Part shown: piece after piece, positions 5,157-41,200 of the stretch
Layout of the letters: each line of letters begins with the position of its first letter
Numbering within the stretch: the stretch's first letter is position 1
Source of the DNA: Astropecten irregularis
Taxonomy: Eukaryota > Echinodermata > Asteroidea > Paxillosida > Astropectinidae
Assembly (NCBI GenBank): GCA_963971285.1
Contig: OZ020249.1
Location: 9,598,256-9,662,255, forward strand
DNA length: 64,000 nt
Reading direction: 5' to 3'
Notes under the pieces: generated by a model
What the model was told of the DNA's origin: nothing
Seen by the model: only the letters and a program-made list of their open reading frames with translations
Database searches by the model: none
Program-made: the position numbers and the translations under genes

Positions 5157-5276
5157 ATGTCGTTTTGGCGATGCTGTGAATCAGTTAATGCAATATGTCA
5201 TCGGGTATTAGAGAGAAACAGCTGGATTCGTCACGCCCCGCGGAGATGGAAGAAAGTCAAGAGAAAGTGGCAAGCA
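5157..5276 (+). CDS. NSUN4: NSUN4 exon 1 (mitochondrial leader)
   Basis: Forty codons from ATG to a GTAAGT donor at 5277, ending in phase 0. The peptide is rich in Arg and Lys (for example HAPRRWKKVKRKWQA) with few acidic residues, as in a mitochondrial targeting sequence. The basic PRR..KK..KW run followed by TEPSF in exon 2 matches the layout of vertebrate NSUN4 N-termini. Two other ATG frames overlap here. This frame is preferred because it joins exon 2 in frame and fits the family. Confidence 0.7.
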
Positions 5277-8200
5277 GTAAGTTCCTTTAGTTGCAGAGTG
5301 CATTGTAGATCGACTCGACTGTATGTATGTAAACATATGTAATCTGTGTTAATACAATACTGTAGTAGAACAGTACCAGTACAGAGTACATATGTATAGG
5401 GATCAGAGTACTGAATATGGACAGTCGTAGACCCAGTAAGAATTGGGTAATGGTGTACATTAAACAGGTACGATACCTATAATTATAACTTAGGGAATAA
5501 AAACAACTTTTTGTAAAGAGACTTACGACACTACGAGTTACATACTTAAATTTCGTGATGTTCTCTTCAATATTAATTATTACTATAAATACTAGCAAGG
5601 TTAAATTTGTGGAAAGAGGGCAGGGCTTTGATTTTTGAGGGAAATTATGGGGTAAAAACGGTAACAAACACCTGACAAAGATGCGACTTTTCACGAACGC
5701 ACGGAGCGATAATATGGTCTAGTGTCTGCTCTCATTGTGTGGACTTTTGATACGCTGGTTGTAGGTACCAGACTAAACTACACTAGCCAGACCAGACAAA
5801 ATGGCCTATGGGCTGTTTTTAAGTTCGCAACAAGCGCGTATTAAAGAAAAATGTATTTTTACTCTGAAATGTGAGCAGTCGCCTCCATGCGTCAACACGG
5901 TTTCAGGTCAACTCGGTCCGTAACCAACTCGGTCCGAGTCATCTCGGTCCGTGACCAACTCGGTCCGTAACCAACTCGGTCCATGACCAACTCGGTCCGT
6001 AACCAACTCGGTCCGAGGCCAACTCGGTCCGTAACCAACTCGGTCCGTGACCAACTCGGTCCCTATGGGAAAATGCACGCAAAAATGTCTGGTAATTTTG
6101 TTGCAGCAAAACGAGTTACGTAGTCTCGCAAATTGCGTGAATTTAACTATTTATTGAGGCCTATTTATTTATTTATTCATTTATTATCTTAAAAACATTA
6201 AAAGAACGAAAAATACATTGGCAGGTGCTGCCCAGGGCCTGAAAAAAAGTAAAAAACAAAAAACAAACAAAAAAACCTGTCATCAAAAGACGTGCCTTCC
6301 CAACCTGCCAATTATAAATCTTATATTAAATTATGTTATGTATATACACAGATTAATTAAAACAAAGCTAAAAAACAAAAACACAAAACAATCATCATTA
6401 TTATTCATTAATTGATTTATTAATTTTAAACATAAAAAGCATGGCATTTGACTTCGTGTATAATTTAATTGATATTTTAATTAAAATTGTATTGTGCCAT
6501 TTTATCAAATAATTATGGTATCAACATAATAAGACATAATTTGTTTCCTCACGGTTTCAGCCACAAGCAAAACATATTATGTTATGATGACATTAAAAAA
6601 CATTAATGCAAGTAGCCTACATGTTGTACACTGCTGCTGCAAACTGCAGTGCATGGATTCTTGTTTGTGTACGTTTTCCCATAGGGACCGAGTTGGTCAC
6701 GGACCGAGTTGGATACGGACCGAGTTGGTCACGGACCGAGTTGGCCTCGGACCGAGTTGGCCACGGACCGAGTTAGTGACGGACCGAGTTGGCTTCGGAC
6801 CGAGTTGGTCTCGGACCGAGTTGGTCACGGACCGAGTTGACTCGGACCGAGTTGGTTACGGACCGAGTTGACTGGCACCCGTCAACACCTCTGATAGCCG
6901 CTCCCTATGTGCGCTTCCTCTTAGGCGGTCGCCTCGTGCATCAACGCCACTTATGCTGCAGCTCCTAGCGCTCGTTCTATGTGGGTGGTCGCTTGTATGC
7001 ATCAATGCCTCTTATGCTGCTCCTAGCGTTCTTGCTATGTGGGCGGTTGCCTCCGTGCGTCAACGCCTCTTACAGCTGCTCCCAAGCGCTTCCTCTGTGG
7101 CCGGTCGCCTCTTGTGTCAACGCCACTTATGCTGCAGCTCCTAGCGCTCGTGCTATGTACATGTAGGTGGTCGCCTGTATGCATCAACGCCTCTTATGCT
7201 GCTCCTAGCGTTCGTGCTATGTGGGCAGCTGCCTCCGTGCGTCAACGCCTCTTATAGCTGCTCCCAAGCGCTTCCTCCTTGGCCGGTCGCCTCTTGCGTC
7301 AACGCCACTTATGATGCAGCTCCAAGGGCTCGTGCTATGTTGGCGGTCGTCTCCATGCGTCAACGCCTCTGATAGCCGCTCCCTATGTGAGCTTCCTTTG
7401 TGGGTGGTTGCGGCTGGAGACGGGGGTCTGTTTGGCTGAAATATACCACCTACAAAAATGCCCGACACACTGCCGGACAGGCTCCATGACCAGGGTACTG
7501 GACGAATGAACTGTACAATTAATGACACAGGAATTAATGTAAAGGGGGTCCAGTGAAATGTACCGGTAATTCTTGCATCAACGCCCCTTATGCTGCAGCT
7601 CCTAGCGCTCGTGCTATGTGGGCAGTCGCCTCTTGCGTCAACGCCACTTACATTTGTATACTGCTCCTAGAGCTCGTGCTATGTTAGCGGTCGCCTTCAT
7701 GTGTCAACGCCACTTATACTGCTCCTAGCGCTTGTGCTATGTGAGCGGTTGCCTCTATGCGTCTACGCTTCTTATAGCCACTCCCAAGCGTTTCCTCGGT
7801 GCATGGGCGGTCGCCTCTTGCGTCAACGCCTCTTATGCATCTCCTAGCACTCGCGCTATGTGGGCGGTCACCTCTATGCGTCAACGCCTCAAATAGCCGC
7901 TCCCGAGCGCTTCCCTGGTGGGCAGACATCTCTGTGCGTCAACGCCCCATGCTGCTCCTTAAGTGCTGGCTCCTAAGGCGATGATCACCCCTCGTGGTCT
8001 TCTTATAGCCACTCCCAAGCGTTTCCTTGGTGCATGGGCGGTCGCCTCTTGCGTCAACGCCTCTTATGCATCTCCTAGCACTCGCGCTATGTGGGCGGTC
8101 ACCTCTATGCGTCAACGCCTCAAATAGCCGCTCCCGAGCGCTTCCCTGGTGGGCAGACATCTCTGTGCGTCAACGCCCCATGCTGCTCCTTAAGTGCTGG

Positions 8201-11200
8201 CTCCTAAGGCGATGATCGCCCCTCGTGGTCACCCCCACTTTCGTCTGAATATGTGCCAGAGGGGATACAGCGGCTTGTCCAAACGAACACACACTGGTCC
8301 AAGGAGCGCAGCCCAAAAAGAGAGGCCGCGCGCCCCCAAAACTGGGCTTATAAAGCTTTGCCTGCATCCAAGCGCACCATTCACAGCTTGTGTGCCGCGC
8401 ATCGTGTGCGCATTTTTCCACGCACATGTACACGGATGCAGGATAAATAACACTTTCACTTCTAGTGCTAGAACTATAAACTTAATTATAGAGGGCGCCC
8501 ATCCAAGCGCAATTTGGTTACACAGCCTCCTTCTTTGCTTGACCGTCCCGGTAAAATTCAGCATACAAATCAATGAACAATAGATAAATAAAAGAAATGA
8601 GCCGAAAACTGAGGCGTTTCTTAACACGCACCTTTAAAAGGAGACTTTTGACTAACCATTGTTAAATTCAAGAGGGCGCTCTTCACTGTTTTCGTGAAAC
8701 ATGTGTTGTGTTACTTTTGTGCGTTAATATACGTCATAAACACAACCGGCGTAAAATAAGCATATATGTAAATGCCGTGTACATACTGCGCAGTGTCCGG
8801 TTGTGGTTTCCAAAGAAGAACAGGTAGAAGCTCCACATCGTAAACCCGTTCTTCTTCGGAAACACACAGTATGGTTCCCTGCTCGTTAGTGGTTGTCTTC
8901 TTGCGTTCCGTCACCCGGACAACTCGGTCGCGGAAGAAGTGGGGCAAGCTCCAGGGGGCCAGAAGGGGTTTGGGTTGCCTTTCTACTTGTCCTTGTCGCC
9001 TTGGAATTCGCCTCTCCTTGGACGGTTTAGGATCCATCGTCTGCCTGGGAGGGTCGGAGACGCCCAGTTCCGCCTCCAGGCCCATGCGGCAGTGGTTTTT
9101 CCGCACCTTGGGCTGCTGCTCCGGTTACCTCTTTGGGCTTCCATTTTCTCGAAGTTTTCCGTGGCCAATACATCACGGATTGCCTCGCCCAGGGTGGTCG
9201 GCTTCGCCCGGAAGATCGCCTCTCGCATCAGCGAAATGTCCCCTTGCGAGGCGGTCTTTACCCGCCAAGAGGGATGTCAGCTCCCGGATCTCCTGACTCA
9301 ACTCCTGAATCGTCTCCTGCGGTCCCTGACGCCGATTCCTCAGCTCCAGTAGGAAATTCTCAGCCATCTGCCCCGGGTCGAAACTGGCATTCAGCAACCG
9401 AATCAGTTCCAAGTACTCATATGGCTTTCCCTTGCTCCTGCAGCTGGCCAGCACCTTGAGTGCAGGCCCCTTCAAGCTTGCGGCTAAAAACATAGCCGCC
9501 TTGTCCTCGTCCCAGTCGTTGGCCTTTTTGCACGACTCAAAGTGTCCCTTGTAGTCTATCCATGGCTGTTTTCCGTCGAAACGGTCCGGGACGATCCTGG
9601 GTCGATTCGGGTGCTCACCGTTCCTCTCATCCCCCTCTTTCTGACCTCAAACCCTCTGGTCCCGTTTCAGTGGCCATGGGGTCTCTGTAGTCGTGCACAC
9701 ATTTTCCCTCTCGAACCATGTATCCTCGTGAGGGAAGTATCTCCTCCTGTCTCCAGCCGCCGCATTGGCATCCCTGATGACTTCGCCTCCAGCTTGTGTT
9801 GTTTATCGACCTCTCCACTCTACTGGTGGGAACTAGCGTGACACGTACAGCACTTCTCTGGCCTATCCTTTGTCGATTGAGGGGTCCTCTCCTGTCCCCC
9901 ATTTGCACTCTGCTCAATATCCAATAGTAAATAGCAATTTCGCCTCCCTTGGCATCGCCCACGCAGGAGGCGACGAATTCGCTCCCGCAGCCTCCAGGTT
10001 TGTCCTGGTCTCCTCAGGGATATCCGGCCATGATACCCAGGGTTTGATGGAGTTTCCGAATGGGAAATCCGTCCCCGCCATGGTCGCCTCTTCCCTGCGT
10101 TGAGCCCCCCAGGTCAAATCTTTCACCGGCATGGCCAGATTTCCGGGAGTAGCCTCCGACGTAAGACAAGGGGCGCGCCGCACGAGACCAAAACCCCGGT
10201 GCAACCCACGCAAGGATGAGGCCGGAGACGGGGGTCCATTTGGCTGAAACATACCGCCTACATAAATGCCCGACACACCGCCGGACAGGCTCCACGACCA
10301 GGGTACTGGACGAACAAACTGTACAATTAATGACACAGGAATTAATATAAAGGGGGTCTAGTGAAATGTAATTCTGCTGGTTTAATAACCCACCACCGAA
10401 AAGCGGGGTGGGTGGAACTCTGTATGTATAGCTCTGATGACAATTATAACCTCTCACTTGTAATTACACTACCCGGCTCCAATAGCCTCCCGTTATAATG
10501 CCTTAATTGGCGCTTCCTTAAGCGCCTCTATAATTAGCGATATTCCCTCTAGCGCCAGCTATGCGAGCAATCGCCTCCTATCACTGGTTCAGTGCTTGCG
10601 CTATGTGGGCGGTCGCCTCTATGCATCTACGCCTCTGATAGCTGCGCTTCCTTTGTGGGCTGTCGCCTCTTGCGTCAACGCCACTTATGCTGCAGCTCCT
10701 AGCGCTCGTGCTATGTGGGCGGTCGCCTATGCATCAACGCCTCTTATGCTGCTCCAAGCGTTCGTGCTTTGTGGGCCGTTGCCTTCGTGCGTCAACGCCT
10801 CTTATGGCTGCTCCCAAGCGCTTCCTTTGTGGGCGGTCGCCTCTTGCGTCAACGCCACTTATGCTGCAGCTTCTAGCGCTCGTGCTATGTGGGCGGTCGC
10901 CTGTATGCATCAACTCCTCTTATGCTGCTCCTAGTGTTTGTGCTATGTGGGCGATTGCCTCCGTGCGTCAACGCCTCTTATAGCTGCTCCCAAGCGCTTC
11001 CTCTGTGGCCGGTCGCCTCTTGCGTCAACACCACTTATGCTGCAGCTACTAGCGCTCGTGCTATGTGGGCGGTCGCCTCTTGCGTCAACGCCACTTATAC
11101 TGCTCCTAGCGCTCGTGCTATGTGGGCGGTTGCCTCTGTGCGTCAATGCCTCTTATAGCTGCTCCCAAGCACTTCATCTGTGGCTGGTCGCCTCTTGCGT

Positions 11201-14200
11201 CAACGCCACTTATAGTGCTCCTAGCGCTCGTGCTATGAGAGCGGTCGCCTTCGTTCGTCAACACCACTTATACTGCTCCTAGCGCTTGCGCTACGTGAGC
11301 GGTTGCCTATATGCGTCTACCCTTCATATAGCCACTTTCAAGCGTTTCCTGTCCCCTGTTTCCTGTCGAAGGGTGCACCGTATTAGACCGAAACCCCGGT
11401 GCAACCCACGCAAGGATGCGACCGGAGACGGGGGTCCGTTTGGCTGAAATATACCGCCTACAAAAATGCCTGACACACCGCCGGACAGGCTCCACGACCA
11501 GGGTACTGGACGAACAAACTGTACAATTAATGACACAGGAATTAATGTAAAGGGGGTCTTGGGAAATGTAATTCTGCTGGTTTAATAACCCGCCACCGAA
11601 CAGCGTGGTGGGTGGAACCCTGTATCTATCACTCTGATGACAATTAGCAATTTATAATAGCCTCTCACTTGTAATTAAACTTACCGTCTCCAATAGTCTC
11701 CCATTATAATGCCTTAATTGTTGCTTCCTCTTGCGTCAACGCCACTTATGCTGCAACTAAAGTGCTCTGTGGGTGGTCGCCTGTATGCATCAATGCCTCT
11801 TATGCTGCTCCTAGCGCTCGTGCTATGTGGGCGGTTGCCTGTATGCATCAATGCCTCTTATGCTGCTCCTAGCGCTTGTGCTATGTGGGCGGTTGCCTCC
11901 GTGCGTCAATGCCTCTTATAGCTTCTCCCAAGCGCTTCCTCTGTGGCCGGTCGCCTCTTGCGTCAACGCCACTTATGCTGCAGTTCCTAGCATTCGTGCT
12001 ATGTGGGCGGTTGCCTGTATGCATCAACGCCTCTTATGCTTCTCCTAGGGTTCGTGCTATGTGGGTGGTTGCCTCTGTGCGTCAATGCCTCTTATAGCTG
12101 CTCCCAAGCGCATATCTGTGGCTGGTCGCCTCTTGCGTCAACGCCACTTATGCTGCAGCTTCTTGGAATTGTGCTATGTTGGCGGTCGCCTCTTGCGTCA
12201 ACGCCACTTATGCTGCAGCTCCTAGCGCTCTTGCTATGTGGGCGGTCACCTCTTGCGTCAATGCCACTTATACTGCTCCTAGCGCTCGTGCTATGTGAGC
12301 ATTCGCCTTCGTGCGTCAACGCCGCTTATACTGCTCCTAGTGCTTGCGCTATGTGAGCGGTTGCCTCTGCGTCTACGCTTCTTATAGGCACTCCCAAGCG
12401 TTTCTTGTCCCCTATTTCCTGTCGAGGGGTGCGCCGCACTAGACCGAAACCCCGGTGCAACCCACGCAAGGTTGCGGCCGGAGACGGGGGTCCGTTTGGC
12501 TGAAATATACCGCCTACAAAAATGCCCAACACACTGCCGGACAGGCTCCATGACCAGGGTACTGGACGAACGAACTGTACAATTAATGACACAGGAATTA
12601 ATGTAAAGGGGGTCCAGTGAAATGTAATTCTGCTGGTTTAAAAAACCCGCCACCGAACAGCGTGGTGGGTGGATCTCTGTATCTATCACTCTGATGACAA
12701 TTAGCAATTTATAATAGCCTCTCACTTGTAATTAAACTGCCCGGCTCCAATAGTCTCCCATTATAATGCCTTAATTGGTGCTTCCTTAAGCGCTTAATTA
12801 GCGATATTCCCTCTAACGCCAGCTACGCGAGCAGTCGCCTCCTATCGCTGGTCCAGCGCTCGTGCTATGTGAGCGGTCGCCTCCATGCGTCAATACCTCT
12901 GATAGCTGCTCCCTATGTGCGCTTCCTTTGTGGGCGGTTGCCTCTTGCGTCAACGCCACTAATGCTGCAACTCAGTGCTATGTGGGTGGTCGCCTGTATG
13001 CATCAATGCCTCTTATGCTGCTCCTAGCGCTCGTGCTATGTGAGCTGTCGCCTCCATGCGTCAATACCTCTGATAGCAGCTCCCTATGTGCGATTCCTTT
13101 GTGGGCGGTCGCCTCTTGCGTCAACGCCACTTATGCTGCAGTTCCTAGAGCTCGTGCTATGTGTGTGGTCACCTGTCTATATCAACGCCTCTTATGCTGC
13201 TCCTAGCGTTCGTGCTATGTGGGCGGTTGCCTCCGTGCGTCTACGCCTCTTATAGCTGCTCCCAAGCACTTCCTCTGTGGCCAGTCGCCTCTTCCGTCAA
13301 CGCCACTTATACTGCTCCTAGCGCTCGTGCTATGTGAGCATTCGCCTTTGTAGTCAACGCAGCTTATACTGCTCTTAGCGCTTGCGCTATGTGAGCGGTT
13401 GCCTCTGCGTCTACGCTTCTTATAGCCATTCCCAAGCGTTTCCTGTCCCCTGTTTCCTGTCAAGGGGTTCGCCGCACTAGACCGAAACCCCGGTGCAACC
13501 CACGCAAGGTTGCGGCCGGAGACAGGGGTCCGTTTGGCTGAAATATACCGCCTACAAAAATGCCCAACACACCGCCGGACAGGCTCCATGACCAGGGTAC
13601 TGGACGAACGAACTGTACAATTAATGACACAGGAATTAATGTAAAGGGGGTCCAGTGAAATGTAATTCTGCTGGTTTAATAACCTGCCACCGAACAGCGT
13701 GGTGGGTGGAACTCTGTATCTATCACTCTGATGACAATTAGCAATTTATAATAGCCTCTCACTTGTAATTAAACTGCCCGGCTCCAATAGTTTCCCGTTA
13801 TAATGCCTTAATTGGTGCTTCCTTTTATAAGCGCCTCTATAATTAGCGATATTCCCTCTAGCGCCAGCTACGCAAGCAATTGCCTCGTATCGCTGGTCCA
13901 GCACTCGTGCTATGTGAGCGGTCGCCTCCATGCGTCAATACCTCTGATAGCTGCTTCCTATGTGCGCTTCCTTTGTGGGCGGTCGCCTCTTGCGTCAACG
14001 CCACTTATGCTGCAGTTCCTAGAGCTCGTGCTATGTGGGTGGTCGCCTGTATGCATCAACGCCTCTTATGCTGCTCCTAGGGTTCATGCTATGTGGGTGG
14101 TTGCCTCCGTGCGTCAATGCCTCTTATAGCTGCTCCCAAGCGCATATCTGTGGCTGGTCGCCTTTTGCATCAACGCCCCTCATGCTGCAGCTCCCAGCGC

Positions 14201-17200
14201 TCGTGCTTTATGGGCGGTTGCCTCTTGTTTAACGCCACTTATAGTGCTCCTAGCGCTCGTGCTATGTGAGCGGTCGCCTTCGTTCTTCAACACCACTTAA
14301 ACTGCTCCTAGCGCTTGCGCTATGTGAGCGGTTGCCTATATGCGTCTACGCTTCGTATAGCAACTTTCAAGCGTTTCCTGTCCCCTGTTTCCTGTCGAGG
14401 GGTGCACCGTACGAGACCGAAACCCCGGTGCAACCCACACAAGGATGCGACCGGAGACGGGGGTCCGTTTGGCTGAAATATACCGCCTACAAAAATGCCT
14501 GACACACCGCCGGACAGGCTCCACGACCAGGGTACTCGATGAACGAACTGTACAATTAATGACACAGGAATTAATAACCCGAGACCGAACAGCGTGGTGG
14601 GTGGAACTCTGTATCTATCACTCTGATGACAATTAGCAATTTATAATAGCCTCAATTGTAATTAAACTGCCCGGCTCCAATAATCTCCGTTATAATGCCT
14701 TAATTGGTGCTTCCTTAAGCGCCTCTATGATTAGCGATATTCCCTCTAGCGCCAGCTACGGGAGCAATCGCCTCCTATCGCTGTCCAGTGCTCGTGCTAT
14801 GTGAACGCGGCGGTCGCCTCCATGCGTCAATACCTCTGATAGCTGCTCCCTATGTGCGCTTCCTTTGTGGCGGTCGCCTCTTGCGACAACGCCACTTAAA
14901 AAAGTCCAGTGTTCCGCCAGTGGGGACAAGGAAGTCCATCCCCAGAATCCCTTGAAGTTTATCTTGGCGAATACAGCTTTGACCTGGCTTTTGTTTCCGC
15001 CAAGGTCTCCATGGCCGTACCGTCTGCCTGCAGGACTCTCTCATGGCTTGGCAACAGTATGGGTCTCATCGCATTGGGCATCCGATGGTTCATATCGTCC
15101 GAATTTTATGGTATCAGTCGTGCCAGTGTCGACCAAGAATGTAATCGGCGTGTCCCGGGTTTTAGAACTCAAGGGTCGGCAGAATCCTTGGCGTCATGAT
15201 ATCCCGAGTAGCCTCACGGGAAGACTTATCCTCTGCCTGCCGTGGTTCTTCTTTCTGTTCGGATTGCGACGTCAGTGGGTGCTGACTTCGCACTGCCTCT
15301 TGCCGCTCCATTTCTGGGCAGTCATACCAGAAGTGTCCCTTTTCCGCACAGGAAAAGCAGATGTCTTCAGGTGCCGCTCGCCTAGTGCGCCGATGTGTCC
15401 ACCGTTTGGGTTGCCTTTCTACTTGTTCTTGTCGCCTCCGAATTCGCCTCTCCTTGGATGGTTTAGGATCCATTGTCTGCCCGGGAGGGTCGGATACGCC
15501 AGTTCCGCCTCTAGGCCCATTGCAGCAGTGGTTTTTCCGCACCTCGGGCTGTTGCCTCCGGTTACCTCTTTGGGCTTCCATTTTCTCGAAATTTTCCGTG
15601 GCCAATGCAGCATGGTGGTCGGTTTCGCCCGGAAGATCGCCTCTCGTATCGACTGGCTGGACACTGCATCTGCGAAATGTCCCCTTGCGAGGCGGTCTCT
15701 ACCCGCTCTGTAAACTCCGGGATACGAGAGGGATGTCAGCTCCCAAATCTCCTGACCCAACTCCTGATTCGTCTCCTGTGGTCCCTGGTGCCGATTCCTC
15801 AGCTCCAGTCATGTGCCAGTAGGAAATTCTCTGCCATCTGCCCCGGGTCGAAACAGGCATTCAGTAACCGAATCAGTTCCGAGTACTCATATGGCTTTCC
15901 CTTGCTCCTGCAGCTGGCCAGCACCTTTCAAGCTTGCGGCTAAAAACATACCCACCATGTCCTTGTCCCAGTCGTTGGCCTTTTTGCACGACTCAAAGTG
16001 TCCCTTGTAGTCTATCTGGCTGTTTTCCGTCGAAACGGTCTGGGACGATCCTGGGTCGCTTCGGGTGCTCACTCATCCCCCTCTATCTGTCCTCAAACCC
16101 TCTGGTCCCGTTTCAGTGGCCATGGGGTCTCTGTAGGTCGTGCACACATTTTCCTCTCGAACCATGTATCCTCGAGCAGGGAAGTATCGCTTCCAGTCTC
16201 CAGCCGCCGCATTGGCATCCCTGATGACTTCGCCTCCGGCTTGTTTTGTTTATCGGCCTCTCCACTCGACTGGTGGGAACTAGCGTGACACGTACAGCAC
16301 TCCTCTGGCCTATCCTTTGTCGATTGAGGGGTCCTCTCCTGTCCCCCATTTGCTCTCTGCTCAATATCCACTAGTGATTTCGCCTCCCTTGGCATCGCCC
16401 ACACAGGAGGCGACGATTTCGCTCCTGCAGCTCCAGGTTTGTCCTGGTCTCCTCAGGGATATCCGTGGTAGGTGGAACTCTGTATCTTTCACTCTGATGA
16501 CAATTAGCAATTTATAATAGCCTCTCACTTGTAATTAAACTGCCCGTCTCCAATAGTCTCCCATTATAATGCCTTAATTGGTGCTTCCTTATGCGCCTTA
16601 TTAGCGATATTCCCTCTAACGCCAGCTACGCGAGCAGTCGCCTCCTATCGCTGGTCCAGCGCTCGTGCTATGTGAGCGGTCGCCTCCATGCGTCAATACC
16701 TCTGATAGCTGCTCCCTATGTGCGCTTCCTTTGTGGGCGGTTGCCTCTTGCGTCAACGCCACTTATGCTGCAGCTCCTAGCGCTCGTGCTATGTGGGCGG
16801 TCGCCTCTTGCGTCAACACCCTTATGGTGCAGCTCCTAGCGCTCGTGCTATGTGGGCGGTTGCCTCTTGCGTCAACGCCACTAATGCTGCAACTCAGTGC
16901 TCTGTGGGTGGTCCCCTGTATGCATCAATGCCTCTTATGCTGCTCCTAGCGCTCGTGCTATGTGGACGGTTGCCTCCGTGCGTCAACGCCTCTTATAGCT
17001 TCTCCCAAGCGCTTCCTCTGTGGCCGGTCGCCTCTTGCTTCAACGCCACTTATGCTGCAGCTCCTAGCGCTGGTGCTATGTGAGCGGTCGCCTCCATGCG
17101 TCAATACCTCTGATAGCTGCTCCCTATGTGCACTTCCTTTGTGGGCGGTTGCCTCTTGCGTCAACGCCACTTATGCTGCAACTCAGTGCTATGTGGGTGG

Positions 17201-20200
17201 TCGCCTGTATGCATCAATGCCTCTTATGCTGCTCCTAGCACTCGTGCTATGTGAGCGGTCGCCTCCATGCGTCAATACCTCTGATAGCTTCTCCCTATGT
17301 GCGATTCCTTTGTGGGCGGTCACCTCTTGCGTCAACGCCACTTATGCTGCAGCTCCTAGCGCTCGTGCTATGTGGGCGGTCGCCTCTTGCGTCAACGCCA
17401 CTTATACTGCTCCCAGCGCTCGTGCTATGTGAGCGGTTGCCTCTATGCGTCTACGCTTCTTATAGCCACTCCCAAGCGTTTCCTGTCCGCTGTTGCCTGT
17501 CGAGGGGTGCGCCGCACGAGACTGAAACCCTGGTGCAACCCAAGCAAGGATGCGGCCGGAGACGGGGGTCCGTTTGGCTGAAATATAACGCCTACAAAAA
17601 TGCCTGACACACCGCCGGACAGGCTCCACGACCAGGGTACTGGACGAACAAACTGTACAATTAATGACACAGGAATTAATGTAAAGGGGGTCTTGGGAAA
17701 TGTAATTCTGCTGGTTTAATAACCCGCCACCGAACAGCGTGGTGGGTGGAACTCTGTATCTATCACTCTGATGACAATTAGCAATTTATAATAGCCTCTC
17801 ACTTGTAATTAAACTTCCCGTCTCCAATAGTCTCCCATTATAATGCCTTAATTGGTGCTTCCTTAAGCGCATCTATAATTAGCAATGTGAGCGGTCGCCT
17901 CCATGCTTCAATACGTCTGATAGCTGCTCCCTATGTGCGCTTCCTTTGTCGGCGGTTGCCTCTTGTGTCAACGTCACTTATGCTGCAACTCAGTGCTCTG
18001 TGGGTGGTCGCCTGTATGCATCAATGCCTCTTATGCTGCTCCTAGCGCTCGTGCTATGTGGGCGGTTGCCTCCGTGCGTCAACGCCTCTTATAGCTTCTC
18101 CCAAGCGCTTCCTCTGTGGCCGGTCGCCTCTTGCGTCAACGCCACTTATGCTGCTCCTAGCGCTCGTGCTATGTGAGCATTTGCCTTCGTGCGTCAACGC
18201 CGCTTATACTGCTCCTAGCGCTTGCGCTATGTGAGAGGTTGCCTCTGCGTCTACGCTTCTTATAGCCACTCCCAAGCGTTTCCTGTCCCCTGTTTCCTGT
18301 CGAGGGGTGCGCTGCACTAGACCGAAACCCCGGTGCAACCCACGCAAGGTTGTGGCCGGAGACGAGGTTCCGTTTGGCTGAAATATACCGCCTACAAAAA
18401 TGCCCAACACACTGCCGGACAGGCTCCATGACCAGGGTACTGGACGAACGAACTGTACAATTAATGACACAGGAATGAATGTAAAGGGGGTCCAGTGAAA
18501 TGTAATTCTGCTGGTTTAATAACCCGCCACCGAACAGCGTGGTGGGTGGAACTCTGTATCTATCACTCTGATGACAATTAGCAATTTATAATAGCCTCTC
18601 ACTTGTAATTAAACTGCCAGGCTCCAATAGTTTCCCGTTATAATGCCTTAATTGATTCTTCCTTAAGCGCCTCTATAATTAGCGATATTCCCTCTAGCGT
18701 CAGCTACGCAAGCAATTGCCTCGTATCGCTGGTCCAGCGCTCGTGCTATGTGAGCGGTCGCCTCCATGCGTCAATACCTCTGATAACTGCTCCCTATGTG
18801 CGCTTCCTTTGTTTGCGGTCGCCTTTTGCGTCAACGTCACTTGTCCTGCAGCTCCTAGTGCTCATGCTATGTGGGTGGTCGCCAGTATGCATGAACGCCT
18901 CTTATGCTGCTCGTAGCATTTGTGCTATGTGGGCAGTTGCCTCCGTGCGTCAACGCCTCTTATAGCTGCTCCCAAGCGCTTCCTCTGTGGCTGGTCGCCT
19001 CTTGCGTCAACGCCACTTATGCTGCAGCTTCTAGCGATCGTGCTATGTGGGCGGTCGCCTCTTGCATCAGCGCCCCTCATGCTGCAGCTCCCAGCGCTCG
19101 TGCTTTATGGGCAGTCGCCTCTTGCGTCAACGCCACTTATAGTGCTCCTAGCGCTCGTTCTATGTGAGCTTTCGCCTTCGTGCGTCAACACCACTTATAC
19201 TGCTCCTAGCGCTTGCGCTATGTGAGTGGTTGCCTCTATGCGTCTCGCTTGGTATAGCCACTTTCAAGCGTTTCCTGTCCCCTGTTTCCTGCGGGGGGTG
19301 CACCGTACGAGACCGAAACCCCGGTGCAATCCACGCAAGGATGCGACCGGAGACGGGGGTCCGTTTGGCTGAAATATACCGCCTACAAAAATGCCTGACA
19401 CAACGCCGGACAGGCTCCACGACCAGGGTACTGGACGAACAAACTGTACAATTAATGACACAGGAATTAATGTAGAGGGGGTCTTGGGAAATGTTATTCT
19501 ACAGGTTTAATAACCCGCCACTGAACAGCGTGGTGGGTGGAACTCTGTATCTATCACTCTGATGACAATTAGCAATTTATAATAGCCTCTCACTTGTAAT
19601 TAAGCTGCCCGTCTCCAATAGTTTCCCGTTATAATGCCTTAATTGGTGCTCCCTTAAGCGCCTAATAAGCGATATTCCCTCTAACGCCAGCTACGGGAGC
19701 AGTCGCCTCCTATCGCTGGTCCAGTGCTCGTGCTATGTGAGCAGTCGCCTCCATGCGTCAATACCTCTGATAGCTGCTCCCTATGTGCGCTTCCTTTGTG
19801 GGCGGTCGCCTCTTGCGTCAACGCCACTTATGCTGCAACTCAGTGCTATGTGGGTGGTCGCCTGTATGCATCAATGCCTCTTATGCTGCTCCTAGCGCTC
19901 GTGCTTTGTGGGCGGTCGCCTCTTGCGTCAACGCCACTTATGCTGCAGTTCTTAGAGCTCGTGCTATGTGTGTGGTCACCTGTATACATCAACGCCTCTT
20001 ATGCTGCTCCTAGCGGTCGTGCTATGTGGGCGGTTGCCTCCGGCGTCAACGCCTCTTATAGCTGCTCCCAAGCGCTTCCTCTGTGGCCGGTCGCCTCTTG
20101 CGTCAACGCCACTTATGCTGCAGCTAGAGGGTATATCGCTAATTATAGAGGCGCTTAAGTAAGCACCAATTAAGGCATTATAACGGGAGACTATTGGAGC

Positions 20201-23200
20201 CGGGCAGTTTTAATTACAAGTGAGAGGCTATTATAAATTGCTAATTGTCATCAGAGTGATAGATACAGAGTTCCACCCACCACGCTGTTCGGTGGCAGGT
20301 TATTAAACCAGCAGAATTACCGGTACATTTCACTGGACCCCCTTTACATTAATTCCTGTGTCATTAATTGTACAGTTCATTCGTCCAGTACCCTGGTCAT
20401 GGAGCCTGTCCGGCAGTGTGTCGGGCATTTTTGTAGGTGGTATATTTCAGCCAAACAGACCCCCGTCTCCGGCCGCAACCTTGCGTGGGTTGCACCGGGG
20501 TTTTGGTCTAGTGCAACGCACCCCTCGACAGAAAACAGGGGACAGGAAACGCTTGAGAGTGGCTATAAGAAGCGTAGACGCAATAGGAGGCGATTGCTGC
20601 TCCTAGCGTTCGTGCTATGTGGACGGTTGCCTCTGTGCGTCAACGCCTCTTATAGTTGCTCCCATGCGCTTCCTCTGTGGCCGGTCGCCTCTTGCGCCAA
20701 CGCCCCTTATGCTGCAGCTCCTAGCGCTCGTGCTATGTGGGCGGTCGCCTCTTGCGTCAACGCCACTTAATACTGCTCCTAGCGCTTGCGCTATGTGAGC
20801 GGTTGCCTCTATGCGTCTACGCTTCTTATAGCCACTCCCAACCTTTTTCTTTCCCCTGTTTCCTGTCGAGGGGTGCGCCGCACGAGACCGAATACCCGGT
20901 GCAACCCACGCAAGGATGTGGCCGGAGACGGGGGTCCGTTTGGTTGAAATATACCGCCTACGAAAATGCCTGACACACCGCCGGACAGGATCCACGACCA
21001 GGGTACTGGACGAAAGAACTGTACAATTAATGTAAATGGGGTCCAGTGAAATGTAATTCTGCTGGTTTAATAACCCGCCACCGAACAACGTGGCGGGTGG
21101 AACTCTGTATCTGTCACTCTGATGACAATTAGCAATTTATAATAGCCTCTCACTTGTAATTAAACTGCCCGTCTCCAATAGTCTCCCGTTATAATGCCTT
21201 AATTGGTGCTTCCTTATTGCGCCTCTATAATTAGCGATATTCCCTCTAGCGCCAGCTACGCGAGCAATCGCCTCCTATCGCTTGTCCAGCGCTCGTGCTA
21301 TGTGGGCGGTTGCCTCCGTGCATCAACGCCTCTTATAGCTGTTTCCAAGCACTTCCTCTGTGGCCGGTCGCCTCTTGCGTCAACGCCACTTATGCTGCAG
21401 CTCCTAGCGCTCGTGCTATGTGGGCGGTCGCCTCTTGTGTCAACGCCCCTTATACTGCTCCTAGCGCTCGTGCTATGTGAGCGGTAGCCTTCGTGCGTCA
21501 ACGCCACTTATACTGCTTCTAGCGCTTGTGCTATGTGAGCAGTTGCCTCTATGCGTCTACGCTTCTTATAGCCACTCCCAAGCGTTTCCTGTCCCCTGTT
21601 TCCTGTCGAGGAGTGCGCCGCATGAGACCGAAACCCCGGTGCAACCCACGCAAGGTTGCGGCCGGAGACGGGGGTCCGTTTGGCTGAAATATACCGCCTA
21701 CAAAAATGCCCGACACACTGCCGGACAGGCTCCACGACCAGGGTACTGGACGAACGAACTGTACAATAAATGACACAAGAATTAATGTAAAGGGGGTCCA
21801 GTGAAATGTAATTCTGCTGGTTTAATAACTCGCCACCGAACAACGTGGCGGTTGGAACTCTGTATGTATCACTCTGATGACAATTAGCAATAATAGCCTC
21901 TCACTTGTAATTATTAAAACTGCCTGTCTCCAATAGTCTCCCGTTATAATGCCTTTATTGGTGCTTCCTTAAGCGCCTCTATAATTAGCGATATTCCCTC
22001 CAGTGCCAGCTACGCGAGCAATCGCCTCCGTGCGGTCGCCTCCGTGCGTTAACGCATCTGATAGCCGCTCCAGAGGTGCGCTTCCTCTAAGGTGGTCGCC
22101 TCTTGTATCAACGCCACTTATGCTGCTCCTAGTGCTCGTGCTATGTGGGCGGTCGCCTCTATGCGTCTACACCTCTTAAAGTCACTGCCAAGCGCTTCCC
22201 CGGTGCATGGGTGGTCGGCTCTTGCGTCAACGCCTCTTAATCTTATGCAGCTCCTAGCGCTCGCGCTATTTGGGCGGTCGCCTCCGAGCGTCAACGCCTC
22301 TGAAAGCCGCTCCCTAGATGTACGCTTCCTTTGTGGGCAGCCGCCTCTTGCGCCAACACCTCTTATGCTGCAGCTCCTAGCGCTCGCGCTATGTGGGCGG
22401 TCGCCTCTATGCGTCTACGCCTCTTAAAGCCACTCCCAAGCGCTTCCCCGGTGCATGTGCGGTTGCCTCTTGCGCCAACGTCTCTTATGCACCTCCTAGC
22501 GCTCGTGCTATGTGAGCAGTCGCCTCCGTGCGTCAACACCTCTGATAGCCGCTCCCTATGTGCTCCCTTAGGCGGTCGCTTCGTGCGTCAACGCCACTTA
22601 TGCTACAGCTCCTGGCGCTCGTGCTATGTGGGTGTTCGCTTGTATGCATCAATGCCTCTTATGCTGCTCCTAGCATTCGTGCTATGTGGGCGGTTGCCTC
22701 CGTGCGTCAACGCCTCTTACAGCTGCTCCCAAGCGCTTCCTCTGGGCAGTCGCCTCTTGCGTCAATGCCACTTATGCTGCAGCTCCTAGCGCTCGTGCTA
22801 TGTGGGTGGTCACCCAATATGCATCAACACCACTTATGCTGCTCCTAGCGCTCGTGCTATATGGGCAGTCGCCTCCGTGGGTCAACGCCTCTGATAGCCG
22901 CTCCCTATGTGCGCTTCCTTTGTGGGTGGTAGCCTCTTGCGTCAACGCCACTTATGCTGCAGCTCCTAGCGCTCGTGCTATGTGGGCGGTCGTCTCCATG
23001 CGTCAACGCCTCTGATAGCCGCTCCCTATGTGCGCTTCCTTTGTGGGTGGTCGCCTCTTACGTCAACGCCACTTGTGCTGCAGCTCCTAGCGCTCGTGCT
23101 ATGTGGGTGGTCGCCTCTTGCTTCAACACCACTTATGCTGCTCCTTGTGCTCGTGGTATGTGAGCGGTCGCCTCCATGCGACAACGCCTCTGATAGCCGC

Positions 23201-26200
23201 TCCCTATGTGCGTTTCCTTTGTGGGCGGTTGCCTCTTACGTCAACGCCACTTGTGCTGCAGCTCCTAGCGCTCGTGCTATGTGGGCGGTCGCCTCTTGTG
23301 TCAACGCCTCTCATGCAGCTCCTAGCGCTCGCGCTATGTGGACGGTCACCTCTATGTGTCAACGCCTCAAATAGCTGCTCCCAAGCGCTTCCCTGGTGGG
23401 CAGACACCTCTGTGCGTCAATGCCCCCCCCTGCTGCTCCTTAAGTGCTGGCTCCTAAGGCGATGATCGCCCCTAGGTCACACCCACCTTCGGCTGAAAAT
23501 GTGGCAGAGGCGATATGGCGGCATGTCCAAACGAACACACACTCGTCGCAAGGAGCGCATCCCAAAAAGAGAGGCCGCGCGCCCCAAAAACTGGGCTTAT
23601 AAAGCTTTGCCCGGATCCAAGTGCACCAATCACAGCTTGTGTGCCGTGCATCTTGCGTGCAAATTCTGCGCAAATGTACATGGACGCAGGATAAATAACA
23701 CTTTCACTTCTAGTGCTAGAACTATAAACTTAATTATAGAGGGCCCACGTCCGAGCGCAATTTTGTTACAGAACAGCACTCCTGATCCAGCATATACATA
23801 AAATGATAAACCTGTGGAAATTGGAGGAAATGGCAAAAAAAAAACGACTCAATTTTAAGGATCTTGCCCCGAGATCAAAACTGTTTTTGGTCTTTGTTTG
23901 AGTAATTTTTGGATAAATCCAGAAATATTTTAACGATATGTTTGTACCAGCACCATCCTCATACCCTGAAAGTAAATCTGTGAACATTTCTGTTTGGCAA
24001 TGTTAATACCAATCCTGTACTGTACCTTTAATTTTGAGGCTGATTTCTCTTTTCATAGCTCTAAGTAAATAAATTATTGAAACCTTGTATATATAAATTT
24101 TTAATAAGATTCTCTCTGTCTTCATTCATTTTTCAAGCCACAGACCCAACGGAAAACCGAGCCGTCCTTTCATGCACTGCGCCACTTTGATGACCACTAC
24201 CAGCAGCAGTTTGGCACCGCATGGCCCTCCATCCGACTGGGACTGCTCTCCCCGCAGAAGTACGGCGCCCTCGTCAACAACTACGAAATCGTTGAGGAAA
24301 CAGAGGCGACTCTGCGGGACCTCGGGGCGGAGGACTTTGTTCAACCGGTTGCCTTGGAGCTGGCGAGGATTATCAGTGATCAAAACGAGATTGAGGACAC
24401 TTTGACCTCCGACTCAGATGAAGAAAGTGGATTCAGTTCAGATCTGTCAGATGCAGATACGCAGGATTTTCGTACGGATTTCCCCAAACTGCCTGTTGAG
24501 GACGGGCATGGAGATTCTCTTGGTCATATGACTGCCATCCATGATTCGCCTCAGCCGAACCCGCCCAGTTTGGCTGCTGATAAACAAGCTCCGTGGGAAG
24601 ACAAATATATCGTGACTCCGGGATACGAAGCCCGCATGGAGTACCTGACCAGCCTGGGGGCTTTGGAGAGTCACCAGTCGCCCGATTTCAACCAGGGTAT
24701 CCTCGAGCTAGACGTCCAGAAAGTTCAGAGGCCACTGAGCATCAGCCCCCATCTCAGGTGCTTCGTCTTTGAGGGCGGAAGCTTGGCCCGCTTCCCTCCC
24801 TCCAAGCTGGACTCGAGGGGATTCTTCCTGCAGTATTACGCCCTGGATGCGGCGTCCGTTCTTCCCGTGATCGCGCTGGATGTACGGTCTGTGGACGTGG
24901 TGCTTGATATGTGTGCTGCTCCAGGAGGCAAAACACTTGCTATAATGCAGACCGTGCCAGCAGGTTGGTTCACTAGGAGCAAACACCCAGCATGACCTCA
25001 CTTGTTGCTTTTTCATCACAACTCGACAGTGTCCCTTTAAGTTTCCTTGTTTTCCACACAACAAAGATTAAGAGAATTGTGCAGAAGAAGTTAAAAGGCA
25101 ATGCCATTTTGCAACTAGGACAATCACATAATTAGTGTTTTTAGGTCTAGTCAATAACCTTTACACCGTTCCGACGGCGCGACCATGGAGGTAGGAAACA
25201 TCTGTCATTACTGGTGTGTCCCGCCTGTATTTTGTCCGGCAACAAAAGAATTTGCATCCGCCGCACTCTATACTGCAGGGAGTACATCCCCATAATCATG
25301 GGACGTACACCCTGCAATTATATAGAGTGCAGTGGAGCATAAATTATTTTGCTGCTGGACAAAATACGGGCGGGACACACAGTGGCGTCACCAGACTTTT
25401 GAGTCTGGGGGGGCACAAGGGGGGCACTAGCAATTGTTGGGGGGGCACTAGCAATTGTTGGGGGGGCACTACAATATATATTATATATTTTTTTCACCAA
25501 CCCAAATCTCAAATGGGGGGCACGCGGGGGGGCACGAGGTTTTCCAGGGGGGGCACGTGCCCCCCCTGGCCCCCCCTTGGCGACGCCACTGGGGACACAC
25601 CAGTAATGACGGGTGTTTCCTACACCTATGGTTGTGCCGTCGGATCGGTGTTTAACTACCTGTAAATCTAATTTAAATCGAAGATAGCCTAAACCTGGCA
25701 AAAACAGGGTATATGCACAAAGCATTCTGGGTAAAATCGTTGCTAGGGCTGGCACTGAATGATTTACATTTGCTGCAAGATGTCCTTTACGTGTGCATGA
25801 GCCTGAGCCTAAGCCTCCGTTTCGTATTCGGCCTTAGTGCCAAAGAAAGGCTATCTTCAGTACGGTCCATTGTCTTTTGATTGTCTCCGTCTGGCGCCCT
25901 CTTTTGGTGGCACATATACACAAATGCAAGACACCCCTTTTTTAGATATCACACTCAAACCAAAGATTATATAGCGCTGCGCGCAAGATGGGGAACTCTC
26001 CCTGAAACGCGTAATTCCCATGGACGCCATTCTGGTGTGAGGGCGGGCGCTCCACGTACGGAGTTTCCATAGCATGATATAAGCGATGTGTGCAGTACTT
26101 GCAAAGGTTGGTCCAGAAAACCACAAAAAAATCACCTTTTTCATATTCAGCTGCTTCACATCAATGTCAAATATTTCTATTTACAATTAACAATAAGTTT

Positions 26201-38295: not shown

Positions 38296-41200
38296 CTGCA
38301 TAAAACAAATAAATAAATATACAAACAAATAATACAATAAAAGTAACAATATAATTCAAACAAAAGGCTGCAATGTAGCTGCTACAAAAAGAAGACAAAA
38401 ACAAGAATAACATGACAATGAATAAGTAAATGAGTTTTTTCACTATCATTGGACAACTGAACAATGAAATGAGACAAACTATGCCACTTCTGTCCATGAG
38501 CGAAGCATTTTACCATGATTTCTGTATGAGCCAGACTTAATTAGCTGTTCCGACATTATTCTTCTTCTGATCAGCTTAGATGAGGTATCATATGAAAGTT
38601 TATCAGCTAAGGATCATTCTGGCACTGAGTTGTAAACATTCTTAATTAATTAAGCAAGTTACAGCTCATTTGAATATTTAATTAGTCAATTTTGTGGCTA
38701 GCATATCTCTAAAAAGACAAATGATTCTTTTTGCAAAAGCTTAGTTAATACATCATGCAGATGTACTTGTGCATGCTGCCATTAAATTGGTCATGACATC
38801 ATCATGACATCATCAAAAGGCTGTTTTCTGTTTAAGGGAGCATATATTTCAAGAACCACAAGTGCCACGATAATGATTCTTGTTGTAAAAGCTTTGTTAG
38901 ATCCTGTAGATGTGCATGCTGCTGTGAAAGTGAATGTGATGTCATCATGACGTCATCAAAAAGGCTGAATTTTAATTCTATATAGTAAACAGTGTCTAAT
39001 CGTCATGAAACATGATAGGTGTGATTGCTGTGCTACTCCAAGAATGTTTCTGTGATGACTTCATTATGACTGAGAATCAAGAGCCTATAAAGCTGATTAA
39101 ATAAGGTCGGAACAGCTCCGCGTTCATCCACAAACACTGAAATGTCTAGTTGAATATTAGTGTGGTAACTGTAGTAGTTACTGTATTTGTAAAAATGATT
39201 ACATAATGCTGATGGCGAAGATACGGCGTTATCCATCACCAGAAGACGTACTGACCAAAAAGATATGAAATTTTTCTCATGAAAAATGCATGGATTTGCA
39301 ATGAGTATGAGAACTTCGCGAAATGAGGAGCAATATGGCGATATTGATCATGCAAATGAGACACAGATACACAGAATGGTTAAATAATTGTCATTTGACA
39401 AATTCCATTTCTTTACCATGTTTACCCTGGACATTGGGTGTGATGTGTTATCGTCTAATACATCTTTAATGGAATGCACTGTTTTCACTGGCTTTTGGGG
39501 TTTTGGTTTTAAAAGGAACTTTCTGAGACACTAGGGACACTATGAGACACTGTGGGCACCAAGGCAATGACCAGGGGCACCAAGACAATGACCAAGGGCT
39601 TCAAGGCAATGACCAGAGGCACCAAGGCAATGACCAGGGGCATCAAGGCAATGACCAGAGGCATCAAGACAATAACCAGGGGCATAAAGACAATGATCAG
39701 GGGCTCCAAGGCAATGACCAGGGGCATCAAGGCATTGACCAGGGGCACCAAGGCAATGATCAGGGGCTCCAAGGCAATGGGCATCAAGACAATGACAAGG
39801 GGCTCCAAGGCAATGACCAGGGGCATCAAGGCATTGACCAGGGGCACAAAGGCAATGACCAGGGGCAACAAGGCAATGACCAGAAGCTACAAGGCAATGA
39901 CCTGTGGCACAAAGGCAATGGCCAGGGGCACCAAGGCAATGACCAGAGGCACTGAGGCAATGACCATGACCAGGAGCACCAAGGCAATGACCAGGGCACC
40001 AAGGCATTGACCAGGGGCACCAAGGCAATGAGCAGGGGCACCAAGGCAATGACCATGCACTGTTTTCACTGGCTTTTTGGATTTTCACTAAGGAACTTTC
40101 TGAGACACCTGGACACTATGAGACACTGTGGGCACCAAGGCAATGACCCGGGGGATCCAAGCAAATGACCAGGGGCTCTAAGGAAATGACCAGTGGCATC
40201 AGGGCAATGACCATGCACTGTTTTCACTGGCTTTTTGGATTTTCACTAAGGAACTTTCTGAGACACCTGGACACTATGAGACACTGTGGGCACCAAGGCA
40301 ATGACCCGGGGGATCCAAGCAAATGACCAGGGGCTCTTAGGAAATGACCAGTGGCATCAGGGCAATGACCATGCACTGTTTTCACTGGCTTTTTGGATTT
40401 TCACTAAGGAACTTTCTGAGACACCTGGACACTATGAGACACTGTGGGCACCAAGGCAATGACCCGGGGGATCCAAGCAAATGACCAGGGGCTCTAAGGA
40501 AATGACCAGTGGCATCAAGGCAATGACCATGCACTGTTTTCACTGGCTTTTGGGGTTTTCACTAAGGAACTTTCTGAGACACTAGGGACACTATGAGACA
40601 CTGGGGGCACCAAGGCAATGACCAGGGGCTCCAAGCAAATGACCAGGGGCTCTAAGGAAATGACCAGGGGCATCAAGGCAATGACCAGGGACATCAAGGC
40701 AATGACCAGAAGCTACAAGGCAATGACAAGAGGCACCAAGGCAAATGTTTAGGTAGGGGCATATCCTCAAAACTATAATATGCCAATAATAATCATATTG
40801 TGTACTTTTTTACCTTTGTATTCCTGATAATTTCAATATTCTCTTGCGGTACGTAGGTCGTCTGAGGGTCCATCCGATCTCTCGTATCCACAAGTATAGA
40901 GTAGTTAGGCATATCCTTCCAATGCTGTAATGATGTGAACACAGACAGACAAACAAGACAAACCAACAAACATGAAACCAAATGAACAGCAATCATGCAG
41001 GTGCGGCATTCCAAAGTGGGCGGAGTCAATGGGAGAGGTGGGAGGGGAGGGCATGATAAGAGCCAGAAGATGGCGAGAATCGTGACAGCCATGTTGATGC
41101 CAAATTTAGGTCTCTCCACGTCACAGCTTTCTCTGCCTTGAAAAGTCGCATGATTTAGACAGTTTTAGGGAATGAAAGTCAACGAAAAGTCACCCAACAT

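Follow-up and report, generated by a model that had tools for sequence, protein, structure and literature searches.

Probable origin of an intronic composite repeat in the starfish Astropecten irregularis from a Ty3-type retrotransposon with a minisatellite in its long terminal repeat

How 60-bp units, blocks of about 0.4 kb and relics of a gag gene came to be interleaved within a single intron is the question raised by a locus in the genome of the starfish Astropecten irregularis. The locus lies in a window of 64,000 nucleotides (GenBank assembly GCA_963971285.1, contig OZ020249.1, positions 9,598,256 to 9,662,255 of the forward strand; C12:9598256-9662255 below), in which the repeats occupy positions 5868-23772, within intron 1 of the NSUN4 gene. 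A first-pass annotation of the window had described the three interleaved parts and had proposed that the blocks were long terminal repeats (LTRs) of a Ty3-type element, amplified together with the 60-mers. The window was searched against its own genome (475.7 Mb in 168 contigs). In the first 600 bases of a mitochondrial COX1, AAA and ATA stand at sites taken to be conserved Asn and Ile, in line with an echinoderm origin; a search for a GFP-family member gave no match, though its control did not respond either. The intron feature very probably derives from a Ty3-type LTR retrotransposon, now dead and amplified, in whose LTR the 60-bp units form a variable number tandem repeat (VNTR).

The three parts were present as described. 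A profile search gave 134 matches to the 60-bp monomer between 5869 and 23425 (E up to 0.01), and Tandem Repeats Finder reported arrays with a period of 57-60 bp and longer periods of 115-121, 171-182, 231 and 289-299 bp at 6880-23424. Thirteen blocks were matched, two of them partial (7406-7562 and 16464-16627) and one inverted (20117-20525); 12 of the 13 had the same orientation. The full blocks were 90-97% identical among themselves and 86-94% identical to relatives elsewhere in the genome. The spacing from start to start was 0.74-1.20 kb in seven of the nine successive pairs listed, and the remaining two pairs, with the inverted block or the second gag relic in between, were spaced at 1.57 and 3.1 kb. 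Both gag relics (8968-10140 and 14901-16465) read on the minus strand and were about 86% identical. They were assigned as putative gag from their position ahead of the protease and from the zinc knuckle that relic 2 contains (PF00098, E 0.0049, short of the curated cut-off); neither the searched piece of relic 1 nor the N-terminal part of gag from the fullest relative matched a Pfam family. The real stretch gave 2827 self-alignments, compared with one (the self match) in each of three local shuffles. Of its length, the 60-mers with spacers make up about 8.4 kb and the blocks 4.6 kb; internal (gag) sequence accounts for 3.2 kb, the end modules for 0.7 kb and a foreign insertion for 1.0 kb, figures computed with limits a few bases off the final limits of the parts.

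The searches gave at least 32 genome matches for the end module, at least 40 for the block and at least 19 for the gag relic; several were in the window and many were paired. Five copies with two LTRs were recovered at C1:28745043-28749581, C11:26611645-26616066, C17:20439988-20444288, C20:17809622-17813952 and C20:6535587-6545585. In all five, the LTRs read TGTGACGG...GTTACA in the plus orientation of the window and had TG...CA ends, and each copy was flanked by an identical 4-bp target duplication that fits RTAY (GTAC on C1, ATAT on C11 and C17, GTAT and ATAC on C20). A solo LTR at C1:14106105-14107302 had ATAT on both sides. The LTRs of the two-LTR copies were 1053-1237 bp long and those of a pair were 99.8-100% identical; these five copies are therefore recent. 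On the plus strand of the window, each relative LTR consists of the block, the 60-mers and an end module of about 0.34 kb. In the direction of the element the order is TGTAAC, end module with TATA box, 60-mer array, block and TCACA. The minisatellite and the block are two parts of one LTR, and the 60-mers are a VNTR internal to it. The layout of Tat/Ogre-type elements, with repeats between pol and the 3' LTR, was not found, since the 60-mers lie inside both LTRs. A 60-mer query of 353 bases gave 128 genome matches in about 24 places (grouped by eye), all but two of which had an end-module, block or gag match within about 5 kb; as the query was taken from this element family, more divergent 60-mer arrays would be missed. 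The two exceptions were C9:15213634 (one weak match) and C27:2397.9-2400.3 kb. Blocks and 60-mers are thus found together at other genomic places, and the window blocks are not independent insertions, the two points at which the proposal might have failed.

The type of the parent element was judged from the fullest copy, C20:6536-6545. This copy has stop-free gag-PR-RT and RT-RH-INT frames (protease, PR; reverse transcriptase, RT; RNase H, RH; integrase, INT) at two unjoined loci. Matches were obtained to a protease (PF13975), a reverse transcriptase (PF00078), RNase H (PF17919/PF17917), and the zinc-binding (PF17921) and core (PF00665) regions of integrase. The order gag-PR-RT-RH-INT was present, gag being placed by position and matching no Pfam gag family. 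The nearest solved relatives of the RT piece were the Ty3 polyprotein 7q5b (E 9e-63) and 4ol8 (3.3e-57), which we take to be the Ty3 RT; the next was at 2.3e-37. The parent was accordingly classed as a Ty3-type LTR retrotransposon, the RT assignment coming from this search of solved relatives. As a candidate primer-binding site, intact copies carry TGGTGGCAGCGGTGGGA two bases past the LTR, the start of which resembles a tRNA complement; this region is deleted in the window. The four other two-LTR copies are short and match the gag start only; the C1 copy, compared directly, is without about 4.9 kb holding most of gag and pol. The blocks had been regarded as LTRs of a Ty3-type element, and they are indeed LTR sequence, present in both LTRs of these five relatives, but only the inner part of the LTR.

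In the window, the parts of this element can be read on the minus strand as a tandem of the form LTR-gag-LTR-gag-LTR in which two LTRs would have been expanded and two deletions would have occurred. The left LTR (5868-8522, the 3' LTR in the sense of the element, outer end missing) contains 60-mers at 5868-5898 and 6880-7382, the partial block at 7406-7562, 60-mers at 7571-8189 and an end module (8190-8522) with the start of U3 (unique 3' region) and the TATA box, and with the plus-strand end GTTACA. Internal region 1 (8523-10140) comprises LTR-adjacent sequence, the tail of an extra open reading frame (ORF) at 8827-8967 and gag at 8968-10140. It is followed by a deletion junction, GTAGCCTCC/GACGTAAGAC (10140-10170), in which the gag leader is joined to the LTR without the primer-binding-site region. 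The expanded middle LTR (10141-14899) holds five blocks (starting at 10169, 11371, 12425, 13461 and 14398) with 60-mers after each and has no end module. Internal region 2 (14900-16465) is the gag-protease relic with the zinc knuckle. The right LTR (16464-23431), also expanded, starts with the partial block at 16464-16627 and continues with six blocks (17503, 18303, 19295, the inverted 20117-20525, 20869 and 21609) with 60-mers at each, the last run being 22031-23425. The right end module (23432-23770), again ending in GTTACA, is the outer end of the element.

The two end modules were 90.0% identical over 331 aligned bases (Kimura two-parameter distance 0.107), and the window copy is therefore much older than the five two-LTR copies. 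Its coding content is gag and a small part of PR. Because pol and the primer-binding-site region are missing and the gag frames are broken, the window copy is immobile. Unlike the short relatives, it is a deletion derivative in which gag joins the tail of the extra ORF at 8967/8968. According to the first-pass annotation, gag was joined straight to a block. It does abut the first block (10169), but because the leader and the primer-binding-site region were lost in a deletion, together with about 19 bp of the LTR. The extent originally given to the array also needed correction, as 5899-6879 is a separate foldback element and the end modules ending at 8522 and 23770 had been overlooked; the rest stands.

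The manner of amplification was read from the edges of the blocks. All ten later blocks that are complete on the left begin with the same junction, CAAGCGTTTCCTGTCCCCTGTTTCCTGTCGAGGGG, with few changes. Its first copy is at 11339-11373 on the plus strand and the others start at 12395, 13433, 14368, 17473, 18273, 19265, 20521 (inverted), 20839 and 21579. The junction contains a 10-base repeat (GTTTCCTGTC) and joins the LTR at a point about 30 bp in from its end, which is why the terminal TG is absent at the blocks. When the 24-base core of the junction was searched in the whole genome with up to three mismatches, it was found at 11 places, ten in the window and one at C12:9475166. With the core pattern read backwards as a control, 148 matches were obtained, scattered over the genome and divided 125 to 23 between the strands. 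A pattern of such make-up is not rare in itself, and the real junction is confined to two loci. The order of monomer types in the runs between blocks was also shared, with a mean longest-common-subsequence fraction of 0.724 compared with 0.578 (standard deviation 0.018) after shuffling; none of 2000 shuffles was as high. This test covered 10 of the 14 runs, and omitted the one-letter run u5, the two runs of the left LTR, the run beside the right end module, unclassified monomers and those outside the length limits. With the 60-mers located inside the LTRs of relatives and one junction in ten of ten later blocks, the proposal that the 60-mers belong to the element and were amplified with the blocks held up. 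Two block types partly alternate (11371/12425, 17503/18303 and 19295/20525), which hints at a possible superunit of about 2 kb.

The second locus with the junction, C12:9467969-9477531, is located about 130 kb upstream and has the same deletion of leader and primer-binding-site region (near 9473253). The junction is present once, at C12:9475166, in a middle LTR with two blocks (C12:9473260-9476562), and partial blocks are found at both ends of the locus, giving two full and two partial blocks. A deletion of about 19 bp inside the block was shared by all window blocks spanning it and by the block C12_9475191, and was absent from C12_9473260 and six other aligned relatives. This locus is likely to be an earlier stage of the array. 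The segment 9469170-9471822 within it, of which all but 157 bases were compared directly, had no match in the C20 copy. A single illegitimate join would first have duplicated a unit of 60-mers plus block inside an LTR, after which the array would have grown, by unequal crossing-over or gene conversion among units of about 1 kb, to about five units in one LTR and six or seven in another LTR of the tandem element.

The mobile copies were also compared for their motifs and repeat numbers. A TATA-like motif was found 187-190 bases from the 5' end of the element in five of six LTRs, the solo LTR being without it, and at 174-175 in both end modules of the window. The sequence GGGCTTATAA was present in 19 of 25 end-module loci, and an AWTAAA motif was located within the block, past the 60-mers, in all six LTRs. 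Since the 60-mers are flanked by the TATA box and a motif resembling a poly(A) signal, mobile copies would carry them in the terminally repeated region (R) of the RNA. Within the five elements, the two LTRs differed in length by 0, 0, 0, 5 and 8 bp. Between elements, 7 of 10 pairs showed a step of about one unit (57-62 bp) or two units (117-121 bp); the other three pairs had only indels of 4-39 bp, and indels of 37-45 bp were seen in other pairs too. These lengths suggest that the number of repeats may change between insertions and be fixed at insertion. A bolder and tentative reading, which we consider somewhat doubtful, is that R arrays anneal out of register at the first strand transfer, so that an altered repeat number is copied into both LTRs. 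The first strand transfer would then anneal one tandem array to another, the retrotransposon would mutate its own leader in unit steps while jumping, and occasional double joins could seed LTR-derived arrays like that of the window. The agreement of LTR lengths within elements, the unit steps between them and the order of motifs are consistent with this.

Several observations do not fit smoothly with descent of the array from an amplified tandem of elements. The left LTR end of the window copy is missing, and the right end is followed by GAAC where the relatives have RTAY. Internal region 2 has no adjoining end module, so the LTR-gag-LTR-gag-LTR arrangement requires two deletions, and one block is inverted. 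Tree supports among the window blocks were 0.40-0.95, which is too little to order the duplications. Block 1 carries the 19-bp deletion yet groups outside the other window blocks, a placement for which exchange or an independent history would be needed. The LTRs also have indels of 37-45, 13, 8 and 4-5 bp, and the predicted transcript limits (R and the unique 5' region, U5) derive from motifs. The flanks of the two C12 loci, compared over 0.9 and 1.3 kb beside the upstream relative, match over 31 bp only and do not account for the presence of a pre-duplicated LTR at two places. A segmental duplication of the two loci together with their flanks was considered and rejected on account of this single 31-bp match.

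The best surviving alternative, though in our judgement unlikely, is that the blocks multiplied during reverse transcription, by template switching between co-packaged RNAs, and that a compound LTR was inserted and modified later. The existence of a second two-block LTR at C12:9473260-9476562 agrees with this, and the authors of a study on rice suggest, in the abstract, that tandem LTR elements stem from a single insertion (PMC11899658). However, the deletion of the primer-binding-site region is common to both compound loci, so that neither is expected to have arisen from the other through retrotransposition in that form; in addition, the 90-97% identity of the full window blocks suggests stepwise growth. 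An artefact of assembly, by collapse or mis-joining, is very improbable. Long similar units are hard to assemble, but the full blocks differ by 3-10% and each has indels of its own, two distinct gag relics and the foldback insertion mark the stretch, a related arrangement was assembled about 130 kb away, and the stretch contains no N. There is also little to recommend repeated insertion of LTR elements into a pre-existing minisatellite of the intron. The alternation of blocks and 60-mers would be expected from it, and the foldback element with its 9-bp duplication is one true insertion into a 60-mer; but the shared left junction of the later blocks inside the LTR end, the absence of the terminal TG, the common order of monomer types between blocks and the presence of 60-mers in the LTRs of intact elements elsewhere all argue against it. 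Maintenance by selection, for a regulatory or structural role in NSUN4 or chromatin, is very improbable too. In its favour, the stretch fills about 95% of intron 1 (17,905 of 18,867 bp) and is old; against it, the array bears deletions, an inversion and a foreign insertion, and its minus-strand monomer, folded in one to three copies, was unremarkable as judged without a shuffled control.

The amplified remains of the retrotransposon lie antisense to NSUN4. Intron 1 spans 5277-24143 on the plus strand (18,867 bp) with frame-compatible donor and acceptor sites. Its assignment in the first-pass annotation was confirmed by exon 2, which matched NSUN4 structures with E 2.4e-38 (Pfam RsmB-F was matched below the cut-off only), and by a candidate exon 1 that ends at 5276, is followed by GTAAGT and is compatible in frame with exon 2. 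That exon 1 belongs to NSUN4 is our assumption from the continuity of the frame and an apparent resemblance to the human N-terminus.

Further observations concern the same family. In the window, the partial block at 7406-7562 and the inverted block at 20117-20525 were 99% identical in their overlap, more than other pairs, with CCGGTA common at the overlap edge, which suggests a recent exchange between the two. A 231-bp tandem duplication of 60-mers beside the left end module (7768-8230, 99% matches) is a recent event within an otherwise old array. The fullest copy has an extra frame of 311 amino acids (stop to stop) past the integrase, the usual place of env, at C20:6537.2-6538.2 kb, in which C2H2 zinc fingers were matched weakly (PF00096, E 0.0012, below the cut-off). 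Related gag sequences, 73-74% identical, were found within C27:2373-2424 kb at 2380636, 2407716, 2414569 and 2422107, with 60-mer arrays nearby; the last three are about 6.9 and 7.5 kb apart and may form another tandem of elements. Of the 23 60-mers at C22:12462.5-12464.0 kb, 12 were 2 edits away from a single type and most of the rest 3-5; they perhaps represent an expansion of more recent date in a further LTR of this family.

The window also holds other repeats. The sequence at 5899-6879 (981 bp, no strand assigned) is unrelated to this element and resembles a foldback element or miniature inverted-repeat transposable element (MITE); it sits in a 60-mer and is flanked by a 9-bp duplication (CGTCAACAC). 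Each of its two inverted arms contains about 10-12 copies of a 16-bp repeat, and the centre is AT-rich. Counting this one, there are 40 long matches in the genome; the rest are 89-95% identical to a 533-base probe. Of eight copies viewed, five had target duplications of 8-9 bp, one had an imperfect one, one had none and one was unreadable. Minisatellites were also seen at 39554-40744 (21-bp units with a longer period of 158 bp) and 42752-43524 (104-bp units).

A single animal genome thus shows several stages, namely recent elements with a minisatellite in the LTR, a two-block LTR and a higher-order intron array with units of about 1 kb. The proposed route from retrotransposon to satellite becomes testable step by step outside plants, and the recent copies form a natural set in which to ask if the number of tandem repeats is altered by reverse transcription. 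As in LTR-derived tandem repeats, the units come from the parent LTR, the 13 blocks matching the LTR block of intact copies; the long homogenised array of a true satellite was not found, as there are about 12 units at one locus with 90-97% identity.

The first-pass annotation knew of no named family with this layout. None of the titles found in literature searches of open papers names this element family, but precedents for the layout exist in CRM1TR, Sobo and the tandem elements of rice. The maize repeats CRM1TR and CRM4TR are described as tandem repeats from LTR-side sequence of one Ty3-type retrotransposon, with CRM1TR units averaging 696 or 819 nucleotides, one to four internal short repeats and two loci on one chromosome; a first join by illegitimate recombination was proposed for CRM1TR, and local homogenisation and gene conversion were discussed (PMC3648361). 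As far as that description goes, the starfish array is similar in its LTR-derived tandem units, its variable internal repeats and its two loci on one chromosome. CRM1TR differs in its location in a plant (peri)centromere, its 97 and 90 full-length units and a unit that spans LTR plus untranslated region (UTR) (PMC3648361), whereas the window has about 12 units, each wholly within the LTR, in an intron of an animal gene. Sobo of potato (from the Sore1 LTR), RPCS of Ctenomys and MALREP of Monopterus are tabulated as satellites derived from LTRs (PMC9659126). LTR sequence became tandem units in these as it did here; they are listed as satellite DNAs, while the starfish family has one expanded locus and one two-block LTR. 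The mouse minisatellites Ms6-hm and Hm-2 in MaLR LTRs (Kelly 1994, as tabulated or referenced in PMC9659126 and PMC6947457) likewise arose inside an LTR, that of a different element family. Ogre elements of Lathyrus, also Ty3-type, are reported to carry short tandem arrays with occasional expansion, FabTR-58 being interlaced with Ogre at fixed intervals (PMC7004042); their arrays are in the 3' UTR, and those of the present family in the LTR. In rice, tandem LTR retrotransposons that share internal LTRs are reported to be frequent, and the tandem of the window resembles them; internally amplified LTRs are absent from the abstract of that study (PMC11899658). Tandem repeats from LTRs are already known, mostly from plants, and what appears to be new here, as far as the literature searched shows, is the family and the locus.

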